This document shows, piece after piece, positions 25,281-37,521 of a stretch of 64,000 nt of DNA. Below the pieces are notes generated by a model. That model was given only the letters and a program-made list of their open reading frames with translations. It had not been told where the DNA came from and made no database searches. This DNA comes from Ectothiorhodospira sp. BSL-9 (GTDB lineage Bacteria; Pseudomonadota; Gammaproteobacteria; Ectothiorhodospirales; Ectothiorhodospiraceae): NCBI RefSeq assembly GCF_001632845.1, contig NZ_CP011994.1, positions 3,420,001 through 3,484,000 on the forward strand. Direction: 5' to 3'. How positions within the stretch are numbered: position 1 is the first letter of the stretch; every line of letters starts with the position of its first letter. The position numbers and the translations under genes were made by a program.

Positions 25281-25343
25281 TGCACCATGACGACCCAGGG
25301 CGCGGCGGGCATGGACCCATCTCAATCAGAACGGGAGGCGAGC

Positions 25344-27347
25344 ATGAGCACACAGGCGGAGATTCTTTGGCAACCGGGTCCCCGGGAACTCACCCAAAGC
25401 GCCATGGCCCGCTACCGGGACTGGCTTGTGCAGCAGGGCCACGGACCCTTCCAGGACTATCACGCCCTGCATCGCTGGTCCGTGAGTCATCCCGAGGCGT
25501 TCTGGGACAGCATCTGGCGCCACACCGGGGTGCGCGCCAGTCGCGAACCCGAGAAGATGCTCGAATCCGCTACCATGCCTGGCGCCCGCTGGTTCGTGGG
25601 TGCCCGGCTGAATTTCGCCGAAAACCTGCTGCGCCACGCCATCGACGGCAACCCCAATGAAGAGGTGGTGCTGGAGGTCAGCGAATCCCGCGAGGATGTG
25701 CGACTGGATCGTGCCACCCTGCTGGCGCGGGTGGCCTCCCTCCAGGCCTGGCTGCGGGAACAGGGTGTGAACCAGGGCGACCGTGTGGCGGGCGTCGTGG
25801 GCAATACCCACGAGGCCCTGGTGGGCATGCTGGCCACCACCAGTCTGGGCGCCATCTGGAGTTCGGCCTCACCGGATTTCGGCGTCTCCGCCATTGTGGA
25901 TCGCTTCGGACAGATTGAACCCAGGGTCCTGCTTCTGGCCAACGGCTATCGCTATAACGGCAAGGTCTTTGATCGCACGGACCAGAACCTCGAACTGGCG
26001 CGGCAGATCCCGGGGCTGCAACGCGTGCTGAGCCTGCCCATGCTGCCTGAAATCGGGCATCCGGATGATCCTCGATTCGTTGCCTGGGACACCGCCCTGG
26101 AGGCCCACCCCCAGGCCGCCCCGGTGTTCGAGCAACTCCCGCCGGATCACCCCGTCTACATCCTCTATTCCTCCGGCACCACGGGCGTACCCAAGTGCAT
26201 CGTCCATGGAGCCGGCGGAATGCTGCTCAACCACAGCAAGGAATTGCTGCTGCATGCCGATCTGAGGCCGGGAGACACATTCTTCTACTTCACCACCACC
26301 GGCTGGATGATGTGGAACTGGCTTGCCTCCGGACTGCTCACCGGGGCGCGCCTGGTGCTTTTCGACGGGTCACCGGCGCACCCGGACCTGGATTGCCTGT
26401 GGTCCCTGATTTCCCGGGAAAAGGTCACCCATTTCGGCACCAGCGCCAAATATCTGGGAAACTGTCGCAAGACCGGCCTGGAACCCGGCAATACCCATGA
26501 CCTGTCGGCCTTGCGCGCCCTCTTTTCCACCGGCTCCCCCCTGCTGCCGGAGGATTTCGACTGGGTGTACCACAGCGTGAAGGCGGATCTGATGCTCAGT
26601 TCCATTTCCGGCGGGACCGACATCTGCGGTTGCTTCGTGGGTGGCACGCCGCTGCTGCCGGTACGGCGGGGCGAAATCCAGTGCCGCATGCTGGGCGTGG
26701 ATGCACGAGCCTACACCCCGGATGGTCGGGACGCGGGGCATGATCGGGGTGAACTGGTCTGCGTGACCCCCTTCCCGGCCATGCCCGTGAGATTCTGGAA
26801 CGATCCGGACGGGGCCCGTTACCGCAAATCCTACTTCGCCACCTACCCGGGCATCTGGGCCCATGGTGACTTCGTGCAGTTCACGCCGCACGGTGGCGCC
26901 ATCATCTATGGGCGGTCCGATGCCACGCTCAATCCGGGTGGCGTGCGCATTGGCACCGCGGAAATCTACCGGCAGGTGGAAACCATCGCAGAAGTGGCCG
27001 ACAGCCTGGTGGTGGGGGCACCCCATGAGGATGGTGATGTGGAGGTGGTGCTGTTCGTGGTCATGGCACCGGAGCAGACCCTCACACCCGAACTGGAGAA
27101 GCGCATCCGTTCGCGCATCCGTGCCAATGCCAGTCCGCGCCATATGCCGGCAAGGATACATGCCGTCAGCCAGATCCCTTATACGCGCAGTGGCAAGAAG
27201 GTGGAGCTTGCCGTCGCCCGCATGCTCCAGGGCGAAACGGATGCGGAGAACCTGGGCGCCCTGGCCAACCCGGAATCCCTGCAGGAGATTGCACGGTGCC
27301 TGACCCAGTGCGCGACAAGGCCCGCCGTTCAGGGCGGGGAAGGATAG
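25344..27347 (+). CDS. aacS: Acetoacetyl-CoA synthetase
   Basis: ANL-superfamily ligase, 667 residues, converting the acetoacetate made by LiuE to acetoacetyl-CoA. The N-terminal ACAS-type domain includes WHTG-like and ARLNFAENLLRH; the latter is typical of this family. The P-loop is YSSGTTGVPKCIVHG, and further blocks are TTGWMMWNWL, SSISGGTDICGCFVGG, YGRSDATLNPGGVRIG and, at the C-terminus, YTRSGKKVELAV with the catalytic lysine. The ATG at 25344 has GGGAGG 5 bases upstream and is preferred over 25287. It completes the leucine route to C2 units. Confidence 0.94.
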   Translation: MSTQAEILWQPGPRELTQSAMARYRDWLVQQGHGPFQDYHALHRWSVSHPEAFWDSIWRHTGVRASREPEKMLESATMPGARWFVGARLNFAENLLRHAIDGNPNEEVVLEVSESREDVRLDRATLLARVASLQAWLREQGVNQGDRVAGVVGNTHEALVGMLATTSLGAIWSSASPDFGVSAIVDRFGQIEPRVLLLANGYRYNGKVFDRTDQNLELARQIPGLQRVLSLPMLPEIGHPDDPRFVAWDTALEAHPQAAPVFEQLPPDHPVYILYSSGTTGVPKCIVHGAGGMLLNHSKELLLHADLRPGDTFFYFTTTGWMMWNWLASGLLTGARLVLFDGSPAHPDLDCLWSLISREKVTHFGTSAKYLGNCRKTGLEPGNTHDLSALRALFSTGSPLLPEDFDWVYHSVKADLMLSSISGGTDICGCFVGGTPLLPVRRGEIQCRMLGVDARAYTPDGRDAGHDRGELVCVTPFPAMPVRFWNDPDGARYRKSYFATYPGIWAHGDFVQFTPHGGAIIYGRSDATLNPGGVRIGTAEIYRQVETIAEVADSLVVGAPHEDGDVEVVLFVVMAPEQTLTPELEKRIRSRIRANASPRHMPARIHAVSQIPYTRSGKKVELAVARMLQGETDAENLGALANPESLQEIARCLTQCATRPAVQGGEG

Positions 27348-27359
27348 CGCGCGGCGCGG

Positions 27360-27380
27360 GAATCCCCCTTGAGGGGATTC
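27360..27380 (+). terminator. Hairpin after aacS
   Basis: GAATCCCC (27360-27367) and GGGGATTC (27373-27380) form an 8-bp stem with a 5-base loop, 12 bases after the aacS stop. There is no T-run, so termination is uncertain; the right arm overlaps the -35 of the next promoter. Confidence 0.4.
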
Positions 27381-27398
27381 GCATAGCGCCGCTATACT
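27369..27398 (+). promoter_or_regulatory. Sigma-70-type promoter of the structured leader
   Basis: TTGAGG (27369-27374), an 18-base spacer and TATACT (27393-27398). Transcription should start near 27405, which places the first arm of the closing helix about 10 bases into the RNA. Confidence 0.6.
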
Positions 27399-27404
27399 GG
27401 CCAT

Positions 27405-27600
27405 GTTCTTATCAACCTACGGTCGGGCGGACCGAAAGTAACGCCTGTCAGACACGAGAATGTGAGTCCTGGGGAGCATGGGTTGGTTCGCCGCCGTAAA
27501 AGCGTCCGCGTGGAGCTTAGCGGCGAAAACCAAGCCATCTCCTTGGGCGGTCTCGGGGCAGGAACCCACCGAAGCGAGAACAACCTCGCCGTAGGAATTC
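27405..27600 (+). ncRNA. Structured leader RNA / possible small RNA before the AEC transporter
   Basis: A transcript from the promoter at 27369 would fold strongly. CCTACGG (27416-27422) pairs with CCGTAGG (27589-27595). Inside are CCTG/CAGG (27444-27447 with 27559-27562), and GAG.CC with GG.CTC (27464-27469 with 27549-27554). A long rod follows: GGAG, ATGG, TTGGTT and CGCCGC (27473-27494) pair with GCGGCG, AACCAA, CCAT and CTCC (27520-27542), about 20 bp broken only by a bulged C, a G.G mismatch and an AA bulge. Small hairpins at 27420-27434 and 27574-27589 flank the closing stem. The only Shine-Dalgarno-like sequence of the next gene (AGGA, 27593-27596) is in the closing helix. It could be a cis-acting leader or a 6S-like RNA; I cannot assign a known family. 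Confidence 0.55.
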
Positions 27601-27605
27601 TCTTC

Positions 27606-28547
27606 ATTCAGGACGTCAACGCTACCCTGTCTCTCTTCACCCAGCTCCTCCCCCTGTACATCACCATTGCCCTGGGCTGGGTGGCCGGGCGTTACCTCAA
27701 CGCCAGTGGGGGGCATATCGCCGGGATCATGCTCTATATCATCACACCGTCGGTGATCTTTGCCGGGGTGATGCATGCCCCGCTGTCGCCCAGGGTGATC
27801 CTGCTGCCGGTGATGGTGTTCGGGTTCTGCACGGTCATTGCCCTGAGCCACCTGTACATCGCCCGGCGCTGGCTCAAGGACGGCACCGCCTCGCTCATTC
27901 CCCTGTCGGTGGGCACCGGCAACAGCGGTTATTTCGGCATCCCCGTGGCGCTGCTGCTGTTTGGCACCGAAGGCTTGAGCATTTACATCCTGTGCATGCT
28001 GGGGACCACACTGTTCGAGAATTCCGTGGGTTTTTACCTGGCGGCGCGGGGTCGTTTCGGCATCCGCGACTGCCTGGTCAAGGTGGCGCGCCTGCCCTCG
28101 CTGTACGCCTTTTTGCTGGGCGTGATGCTCAACCTGAACGGCATCGGCATCGCCGACGCCCTGCAGCCCCTGTTCGACAACCTGCGCGGCGCCTACAGCA
28201 TCCTGGGGATGATGATCATCGGCATGAGCATCCTGAGCTTTCGGGGCCTGGTGGGTAGCGGCCAGTTTACCGTGCTGGCCTTTGGGGGCAAATTCATCAG
28301 CTGGCCGCTACTGGCCCTGAGTTTTGCCTGGCTGGATGCGCACTGGCTGGGGATCTACGACCCGGCGGTTCACCAGGCCCTCTTCCTGCTTTCCATCACC
28401 CCCATCGCTGCCAACACCGTGGTCATCGCCAGCATCCTCAACACCCACCCCCAGCAGGCTGCAGGCACCACCCTGCTCAGCACCCTCTTCGCGTTGGGGT
28501 TCATCCCGGTGATGGTGACAGGGTGGATGCCGCCCGGCGCGGGGTAG
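27606..28547 (+). CDS. AEC (auxin efflux carrier)-family transporter
   Basis: Inner-membrane carrier of the AEC/BASS-like fold, about 313 residues, with roughly ten hydrophobic helices (LPLYITIALGWVAGRYL at the start; NTVVIASILNTH near the end, a conserved family block). Substrates of bacterial members are organic acids or amino acids; nothing here fixes which. The start is unclear. The frame stays open to 27462, but family alignment places the N-terminus near TLSLFTQLLPLY. No ATG, GTG or TTG precedes this closely; ATT at 27606 lies 9 bases after AGGA, and TTG at 27543 is the nearest standard alternative. It is preceded by the structured RNA. Confidence 0.85.
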   Translation: MQDVNATLSLFTQLLPLYITIALGWVAGRYLNASGGHIAGIMLYIITPSVIFAGVMHAPLSPRVILLPVMVFGFCTVIALSHLYIARRWLKDGTASLIPLSVGTGNSGYFGIPVALLLFGTEGLSIYILCMLGTTLFENSVGFYLAARGRFGIRDCLVKVARLPSLYAFLLGVMLNLNGIGIADALQPLFDNLRGAYSILGMMIIGMSILSFRGLVGSGQFTVLAFGGKFISWPLLALSFAWLDAHWLGIYDPAVHQALFLLSITPIAANTVVIASILNTHPQQAAGTTLLSTLFALGFIPVMVTGWMPPGAG

Positions 28548-37294: not shown

Positions 37295-37370
<76 letters not shown>

Positions 37371-37380
37371 GATCTTCCCA

Positions 37381-37409
37381 AAACCTCGGCGCAGCCGGGG
37401 TTTTTTGTT
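37381..37409 (+). terminator. Rho-independent terminator after tRNA-Gly
   Basis: CCTCGGC, a GCA loop and GCCGGGG followed by TTTTTTGTTT. Confidence 0.85.
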
Positions 37410-37447
37410 TGACCCAGGGGGATGGTACCATTCCCTTATAGCCCAAA

Positions 37448-37521
37448 GGCTGGGTGGCAGAGTGGTTATGCAGCGGCCTGCAAAGCCGTGTACGCCGGTT
37501 CGATTCCGACCCCAGCCTCCA
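37448..37521 (+). tRNA. tRNA-Cys (GCA)
   Basis: 74-nt cloverleaf: acceptor GGCTGGG/CCCAGCC, anticodon GCA in CGGCCTGCAAAGCCG, T arm CCGGTTCGATTCCGA and encoded CCA at 37519-37521. Confidence 0.96.

Follow-up and report, generated by a model that had tools for sequence, protein, structure and literature searches.

The locus considered here raises the question of what a strongly structured RNA represents when it lies directly in front of a transporter gene. It is found in a window of 64,000 nucleotides (the whole stretch of DNA analysed) from Ectothiorhodospira sp. BSL-9, between an acetoacetyl-CoA synthetase-like gene and the transporter gene, and the initial annotation described it as a leader enclosing the ribosome site of the transporter. 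In the current analysis the RNA has been identified as part of a larger unit of 315 bp (27305-27619, plus strand) that has transposon ends on both sides and is organised as a left-end hairpin, a promoter, an RNA of about 190 nt and a right end, GACGTCAA. Judged by its subterminal hairpins, its conserved ends and its several copies at different sites, the unit is a non-autonomous mini-element of the insertion sequence (IS) type IS200/IS605. We consider it probable that this mini-element carries a promoter-driven omegaRNA occurring alone (solo), without tnpB, and that the adjacent flank would be its guide, usable by a TnpB acting in trans.

A nucleotide search with the window RNA in 96 genomes, the own genome included, gave some match at E-values up to 1 in 52 of them, most of the matches measuring 15-40 nt. 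Strong ones (E below 1e-40) are encoded in one genome referred to as G005 (94%) and at four places in Thiorhodospira sibirica (G013), with weaker pieces in G004; in the own genome (G000) the RNA is single-copy. Further copies came from a pattern scan of genome contigs, in a gammaproteobacterial metagenome-assembled genome (locus L086) and in Halorhodospira abdelmalekii (L092 and the shortened L090). Besides that of the window, seven full-core copies are present in four other genomes. The full-core copies are alike from near window position 27305 to the final GACGTCAA (27619) and differ in the flanks outside, the exceptions being L032, which lacks the final GACGTCAA, and L086, which has a left boundary that is not clear. 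The TGAC flanking the window element on the left is also found at L037, L038, L092 and L090 and at the full IS605-type element L040, all four T. sibirica copies are flanked by TCAT, not TGAC, and L086 has another flank. Remnants occur in G004 and G005, and internal deletions in L035, L036, L037 and L039. The window RNA matched nothing in searches of phages and plasmids.

The mini-element has no transposase of its own, and the own genome encodes an autonomous element whose ends are the same. This element (L040; 1793 nt; ends GATGTCAA) has a TGAC left flank and carries tnpA and tnpB in divergent orientation between the matching ends. Its TnpB scores 366 bits to NF040570 and its TnpA 150 bits to NF033573, and the TnpB contains GMDLG, IEDL and DVNAA, which we take to be the active-site motifs of the RuvC type. 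L040 has in common with the window element the left end, the TGAC flank, the TCAA end and the 3' domain of the RNA. A simple internal deletion from L040 as the origin of the mini-element was rejected, because L040 lacks the rod, the long bulged stem of the solo RNA. There are eight TnpB matches in the own genome and seven to Y1 TnpA, six of them over the cut-off; TnpB is present in all three searched genomes with full-core copies, G005 having two matches and G013 34. In T. sibirica the left end of L031 matches four local TnpB loci over 40-41 nt (97.5%), and because of this match and of the TCAT flank it is suggested that the ends of the mini-elements may follow the resident element.

The RNA is also related to the 3' ends of tnpB genes. 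The core motif GAAAGUNACGCCUGUCAGANACGA gave five hits in a viral contig collection, all five in TnpB C-terminal sequence: in the long open reading frames (ORFs) of L102 (481 aa) and L105 (458 aa), in ORFs truncated at the locus end (L101, L103) and in a degenerate one (L104). The L102 protein matches the annotated TnpB of L119 (E-value 3e-34) and L105 has an IS607-type recombinase upstream, as seen by eye; the other viral hits have been assigned to TnpB by their common C-terminus and not by family search. The motif is also carried by L058, which has a PF07282 match, and the window still reads KVTPVR in that frame. A clear coding signal through 27462-27600 had been named in the initial annotation as evidence that would speak against an RNA; the frame is indeed open there, but we read it as what remains of a TnpB C-terminus (KVTPVR...), continuing into the transporter.

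Further downstream, a 3' domain of the RNA (GCAGGAACCCACCGAAGCG..GUAGGAAU..hairpin..GUCAA) is common to the TnpB-linked ends. In an alignment of this domain (A5; 16 rows, 15 distinct) 89.9% of the 248 cells are standard pairs and 11 of the 18 pairs are changed on both sides. The covariation score was reached by none of 500 shuffles and the number of changed pairs by four of 500, and versions slid by 1-3 columns had at most five pairs. Among the nine rows of A5 that are not solo RNAs, four are TnpB-linked by PF07282 (L040, L044, L005 = L053 and L009 = L065); the remaining five are L006, L007, L008, L017 and L018, and L032 was omitted, its right end being lost.

The good promoter and the strong structure noted initially have both been recovered. 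A transcript start would be expected near 27405, and the -10 box TATACT is found in six of nine copies (TATAAT in L086, TATGCT in L090, GATACT in L033). The promoter is straddled by a large palindrome that could be an operator or a DNA hairpin; its arms differ compensatorily between copies (AATCCCC/GGGGATT against AATCTCC/GGAGATT), and it is broken in L090 and partly broken in L032 and L033. The RNA from 27400 to 27608 has a predicted fold of -83.6 kcal/mol compared with a shuffle mean of -70.8 (z -3.06), one of 200 shuffles being equally good. No terminator-like site was found in 27200-27800.

The inner rod of the initial annotation is present in the predicted fold, and its 9+4 pairs are paired in 100% of the cells of an alignment with Helicobacter sequences (A8, described below), three pairs being changed on both sides between Gammaproteobacteria and Helicobacter. 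The closing helix of 7 bp that had been proposed with it stands in part: the heptamers CCTACGG (27416-27422) and CCGTAGG (27589-27595) are present, but their inner part competes with the covarying hairpin at 27420-27434, leaving at most CCUAC/GUAGG. For this remaining helix a supporting change on both sides was not seen, the 3' side in L092 being GCAGTAGG. The hairpin shows compensatory changes to CGGCC/GGCCG in L092 and to GCGCA/UGCGC and CGGCA/UGCCG in Helicobacter. Its loop GGGCG could pair with CGCC (27442-27445) in a possible pseudoknot, a pairing that in Helicobacter does not stay in a single register (by eye). A lack of compensatory changes in homologues, which had been offered as grounds for discarding the structure, is contradicted by these alignments.

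A search of Rfam, recommended initially, gave no match in this stretch at gathering scores, in agreement with the earlier statement that no riboswitch class fits. At permissive scores the best match is HPnc0580 (RF02269), a small RNA of Helicobacter pylori (35.3 bits, E-value 2e-4), and three sibling copies exceed the gathering score of that family (L002, 43.3; L086, 49.2; L092, 39.0 bits). HPnc0580 has been located in miniIS605, a non-autonomous element (PMC6531487). The HPnc0580 consensus matches eleven Helicobacter plasmids and one prophage (12 records), and the six copies fetched have the order TTTAA near the left end (the exact left boundary is not fixed), hairpin, TATAAT, RNA, TAGGAA, hairpin and CTTCAC, with TACAAT for TATAAT in L118 and AAGGAA (L118) or GAGGAA (L116) for TAGGAA. 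They resemble the window element in the left-end hairpin, the -10 box, the hairpin, AAAGUNACGCC, the GUGAGNCCUG rod, GUAAAA, NAGGAA, the right-end hairpin and the lack of an internal tnpB. They differ in their ends, TTTAA on the left and CTTCAC on the right in six copies, and in having no GCAGGAACCC..hairpin 3' domain.

The alignment A8 comprises four gammaproteobacterial and six Helicobacter rows. All 179 cells of 18 chosen pairs are standard and seven pairs are changed on both sides; the upper rod and one lower stem, which are off by one column between the groups, were left out of this count, and the Helicobacter 3' ends are misplaced in it. The slid versions had none, and neither the cells paired nor the covariation score was reached in 500 shuffles. 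By sequence comparison the window RNA is homologous to HPnc0580 over most of its length.

A model built from both groups (R2) was used to survey the wider occurrence of the RNA. With strict filters, six of 369 genomes of the class have copies, namely the own genome (1), G114 (2), G161 (2), G244 (2), G276 (8) and G373 (1); in a phylum sample copies were found in two of 398, the own genome and G500. G500 encodes three short solo elements of about 200 nt (L123, L124, L125) with both terminal hairpins, the core motif and GTGTCAA and without the rod. G276 is a high-copy relative with eight solo RNA copies (L128, L133, L135-L140), and in L128, L133 and L138, the three that were followed to their ends, the right end ..GGAGAACG has no hairpin. 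Ten copies of G114, G244, G276, G373 and G161 were examined by eye; in nine the end is AACG or AACGG and a right-end hairpin is missing, L134 being the exception. IS607 elements use GG at the junction. L100 is the same place as L126 (G244:C54) and is a good R2 match; L099 (G252) is not among the R2 matches in a class sample of the same size. L126 also has, about 280 nt from its first core-motif RNA, a second, short one at 1150-1224 on the minus strand (27.1 bits).

In an alignment of 22 R2 matches (A10) 94.0% of 629 cells pair and 17 of the 30 pairs (99 cells) are changed on both sides; these counts lean towards the model, because the alignment is fitted to the model structure. The changed pairs were reached by 10 of 500 shuffles and the covariation score by none, and slid versions had at most six pairs. 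The 22 rows include the short second match of L126, 10 of the 15 R2 copies outside the own genome and one of the four T. sibirica copies. A tblastn search with three TnpB proteins against 31 solo-RNA loci identified tnpB in one, L119, and a 23-residue fragment in L117. The tnpB of L119 ends about 1.75 kb upstream of the solo RNA and has its own right end ..GTCAA. In L032, which is outside these 31 loci, a PF07282 match lies about 2.2 kb from the solo copy.

The history of the window site can be followed by comparison with a relative, G007, which has the same two genes without the element. The upstream gene product of G007 ends with CLTLAGRDKSRPARP; its gene reads ATGCCTGAC followed by ATTGG at one junction and its transporter start reads CCATGAC followed by CACCACCCTC at the other, the two TGAC ends being 159 nt apart. 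In the window the element lies directly between ..GTGCCTGAC and CGCTACCCTG, and the intervening 159 bp of G007, including the native ATG, are missing. The left junction corresponds to the TGAC in the tail of the upstream gene, and the right junction to the TGAC of the transporter start codon; the right flank is the sequence that follows TGAC in the ATGAC start of relatives. This right junction therefore fits an insertion into the ATGAC of the transporter start codon. The left junction would have arisen by a second insertion followed by recombination, or by a deletion adjacent to the element. As a result of the insertion and the loss of 159 bp, the upstream gene ends in element-encoded residues, the transporter has no ATG of its own, and upstream its frame continues without a stop across the element RNA as far back as 27387, from where it reads ..GPKVTPVRHENVSPGEHG..DVNATLSLFTQLL.

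From this arrangement, the RNA is now likely to be the 5' part of the transporter transcript, and the earlier suggestion of a small RNA extending at its 3' end into the transporter gene comes close to what is present. The label of an auxin efflux carrier given initially to the transporter has not been confirmed: no auxin-efflux-type Pfam match to it was obtained, its ORF scores 24.0 bits to the Pfam family SBF against a cut-off of 24.3 (the G007 orthologue, 24.5 bits), and the G007 orthologue has no NCBIfam match. In the right-end hairpin of the window copy the second arm is deleted, as compared with other copies, and because of this loss the copy is probably immobile.

Table 1. Features of the window at and around the mini-element.
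Feature	Position	Strand	Basis
Acetoacetyl-CoA synthetase-like gene; last codons and stop now within the left end of the element	25287..27347	+	ORF; AMP-binding/ACAS_N domains
TGAC flank (target/TAM-like tetranucleotide; TAM, transposon-associated motif), inside the 3' end of the acetoacetyl-CoA synthetase-like gene	27301..27304	+	G007, a relative lacking the insert, has TGAC in the same position
Left end	27305..27349	+	93% identity to the left end of L040 over 58 alignment columns (window 27301-27356)
Left-end hairpin CCCGCC-GTTCA-GGGCGGG	27321-27338	+	sequence
Large palindrome ATAGCGcGCGGCGC..GGAATCCCC/GGGGATTC..AGCGCCGCTAT straddling the element promoter	27344..27395	+	DNA fold of 27340-27400, z -3.59
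Sigma-70-type promoter-like site TTGAGG-18-TATACT	27369..27398	+	one found in 27200-27800, shuffle mean 0.1
Structured RNA core (candidate solo omegaRNA, HPnc0580-like)	27416..27596	+	Rfam RF02269 35.3 bits and covariation
Hairpin CGGUC(GGGCG)GACCG	27420..27434	+	both sides changed in 4/5 pairs; all cells paired (100%) in alignment A8
Core motif GAAAGUNACGCCUGUCAGANACGA, encoding KVTPVR in one frame as in TnpB C-termini	27434..27457	+	pattern match in five viral contigs and L058
Open frame that crosses the element RNA and continues as the transporter, whose native ATG is lost	27462..28547	+	ORF list
Rod: CCUGGGGAG (27468-27476)/CUCCUUGGG (27539-27547), UUGG (27483-27486)/CCAA (27530-27533), inner stem with GUAAAA	27468..27547	+	covariation, predicted fold
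3' domain and right end: GCAGGAACCCACCGAAGCGAG..CUCGCCGUAGGAAU, right-end hairpin (second arm deleted in the window), GACGTCAA	27558..27619	+	common to the TnpB-linked 3' ends L040, L044, L053, L065
Predicted guide segment: flank after TCAA, transporter codon 2 onward	27620..27639	+	position by analogy with the ISDra2 reRNA

Elsewhere in the window two tRNA genes (Rfam RF00005) are encoded at 37295-37518. A situation somewhat similar to that of the window exists in T. sibirica, where the copy L032, its last bases missing, immediately precedes an ORF that by eye resembles recO. In T. sibirica, hairpins of the RNA of L031-L034, of the right end of L074 and of an element of the HEARO family at L032 contain a palindromic repeat with the sequence CCTGCCTGC..GCAGGCAGG or one close to it. 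It sits in several different transposon RNAs or ends, as if targeting hairpin tips.

The way in which such an element would work is suggested by analogy with ISDra2. The right-end RNA (reRNA) of ISDra2 corresponds to the tnpB 3' end, the right end and about 16 nt of flank, ISDra2 TnpB cuts beside a TAM that is also the insertion target, and cutting of the empty donor joint has been proposed (PMC8612924); a scaffold and a 16-nt guide are described in PMC10097598. For the solo RNA we infer transcription, TnpB binding, cutting, guide function and a benefit in retention. For its movement the mini-element would depend on a Y1 TnpA supplied in trans that recognises the element ends. Transcription from the element promoter through the scaffold into the flanking DNA would make the first 16-20 nt past TCAA the guide, and the solo RNA would load TnpB made elsewhere in the genome. 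The complex would cut TGAC with the flank, that is the empty site, and so favour the keeping or copying of the element.

For the window an insertion in the transporter ATGAC is envisaged, with a later deletion or two-copy recombination that would have removed the 159 bp to the second TGAC upstream. By position, CGCTACCCTGTCTCTC would serve as the guide, and the target would be TGAC plus this same sequence, i.e. the uninterrupted transporter start. An exact TGACCGCTACCCTG is not found in the own genome, which has six places with one mismatch. At the site in the window TCAA takes the place of TGAC, so that a TAM-like flank is lacking; a loaded TnpB would therefore be expected to spare the occupied site and to attack the empty one.

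Several observations weigh against a solo guide RNA. The window score of 35.3 bits is below the RF02269 gathering score of 37, and the HPnc0580 model, searched in 47 family genomes, found only G005 and, below the cut-off, the own genome, missing the four T. sibirica copies. A search of six core-motif loci with the same Rfam model, at E-values up to 1, gave nothing, and R2 scores at the tnpB 3' end in only two of 21 loci with a TnpB (L048, 28.4 bits; L105, 14.9 bits). In A8 the number of pairs changed on both sides was reached by 102 of 500 shuffles and that of further pair types by 493, and for this reason the weight is placed on the cells paired and the covariation score; in A10 the further pair types were reached by 330 of 500. 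L126 folds no better than its shuffles (z 0.65), the other four members tested having z -2.28 to -4.10. The rod is absent from the TnpB-linked RNAs compared; the joint alignment of TnpB-linked and solo RNAs (A7) is poor and no count has been taken from it. An omegaRNA or reRNA lies across the tnpB 3' end and the right end, and the window element has no tnpB inside, only the relic KVTPVR.. frame. It does have a scaffold homologous to tnpB 3' ends that abuts the right end and is followed by a variable flank, although whole-model searches are weak or without a match.

The rod, being specific to the solo RNAs among those compared, leaves room for a role other than guiding, in which the RNA would occupy TnpB, or control TnpA, and would protect or tune transposition as a decoy or regulator. 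The many copies with one scaffold and differing flanks would suit such a role too; the right end, however, is placed as in guide-bearing reRNAs with a variable flank after TCAA, no decoy-specific feature has been seen, and we regard this role as improbable. It is slightly less improbable that the element is an inert remnant of the IS605 type, comparable to a miniature inverted-repeat transposable element, whose RNA has no present role and whose sequence is kept only through youth, though this also we consider unlikely. The half-lost right-end hairpin and rearranged flanks of the window copy, the internally deleted remnants L035, L036, L037 and L039 and the restriction of strong matches to a model referred to as R1 to three of 47 genomes of the order would all be expected of a remnant. 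Both Helicobacter and other gammaproteobacterial families, however, have the RNA with compensatory changes, in most cases with no tnpB in the available flanks, and most copies retain the -10 box. A structure kept across two phyla makes a relic unlikely for the family, and a remnant may be the right description of the window copy alone.

The proposal of a cis-regulatory leader or riboswitch of the transporter, from which the annotation of this locus started, now appears very improbable. The strong fold does lie directly upstream of the gene and is likely to share one transcript with it, no terminator-like site separating them. Yet the seven other full-core copies adjoin different genes, the ORFs beside them varying from copy to copy (by eye, not named by family search), which speaks against a transporter-specific leader, and G007 has the transporter without the element. 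No riboswitch match was found and the native start codon is missing in the window; the AGGA at 27593-27596, thought to be an enclosed ribosome site, belongs to a GTAGGAAT motif (TAGGAAT) present in all eight full-core copies whatever is downstream. A 6S-like RNA, proposed earlier for its overall shape, can practically be set aside: the long bulged rod is reminiscent of 6S RNA, but there is no Rfam 6S match at the gathering score, nor at E-values up to 10 in 27300-27700, and the RNA is multicopy, mobile and bounded by IS605-type ends. The sequences thus describe the window locus as a partly decayed copy of an omegaRNA-like gene that has its own promoter, is carried by a mini-IS and is related to HPnc0580; the interest lies in the family.

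Besides miniIS605, three known systems are close to this family. The omegaRNAs or reRNAs of TnpB in IS200/IS605 and IS607 elements, such as ISDra2, are alike in the homologous core motif and 3' domain, the abutting right end, the flank as putative guide and the TGAC as target or TAM-like sequence (PMC8612924, PMC10097598); the window RNA differs in lying outside a tnpB element, in its own promoter and in the extra conserved rod. The palindrome-associated transposable elements (PATEs), IS605 derivatives reduced to their ends, are likewise short, have IS ends and are thought to be mobile only in trans (PMC7290912); the window element carries in addition a promoter and a conserved RNA gene.

The HEARO RNA (IscB omegaRNA, Rfam RF02033) is another transposon-borne RNA of the guide type, which in T. 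sibirica and G004 is located nearby and has related terminal hairpins, but it belongs to another RNA family with another nuclease, and the window RNA gives no HEARO match at E-values up to 10. HEARO was rejected as the identity of the window RNA, since its matches in L035 and L032 are separate elements at a distance of about 0.8-1.8 kb from the solo copies (L032, 5650-6090, 93.9 bits; L035, 4522-4752, 119.8 bits). The T. sibirica HEARO element has no ORF of at least 90 aa inside and has a terminal hairpin like that of the left end of the solo element; ORF-less elements of the IscB type may also occur in this genome.

A more general proposal, which we put forward tentatively and hold at somewhat below even chances, is that the HPnc0580-like RNAs are cross-phylum selfish guide-RNA genes without TnpB. 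They would have their own promoter and scaffold, would swap their ends to suit the resident TnpA and TnpB, and would use TnpB in trans to destroy empty sites, in a gene-drive-like parasitism of a guide system. The ends compared are of the IS605 type with hairpins in the window family and Helicobacter, and hairpin-less AACG(G) in the other gammaproteobacteria. In the literature searched, which mostly excludes subscription journals and was available in part, no statement was found linking HPnc0580 to guide-type RNAs travelling without a nuclease.

If the reading as a solo guide RNA is right, the uncharacterised Helicobacter RNA HPnc0580 and the 'leader' of a purple sulfur bacterium would be of the same kind, guide-type RNAs that travel without their nuclease, and the question whether non-autonomous elements borrow TnpB in trans for their retention would become testable. 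Strong structured 5' leaders may thus be transposon RNAs, and the TnpB of a genome may hold guides besides its own.

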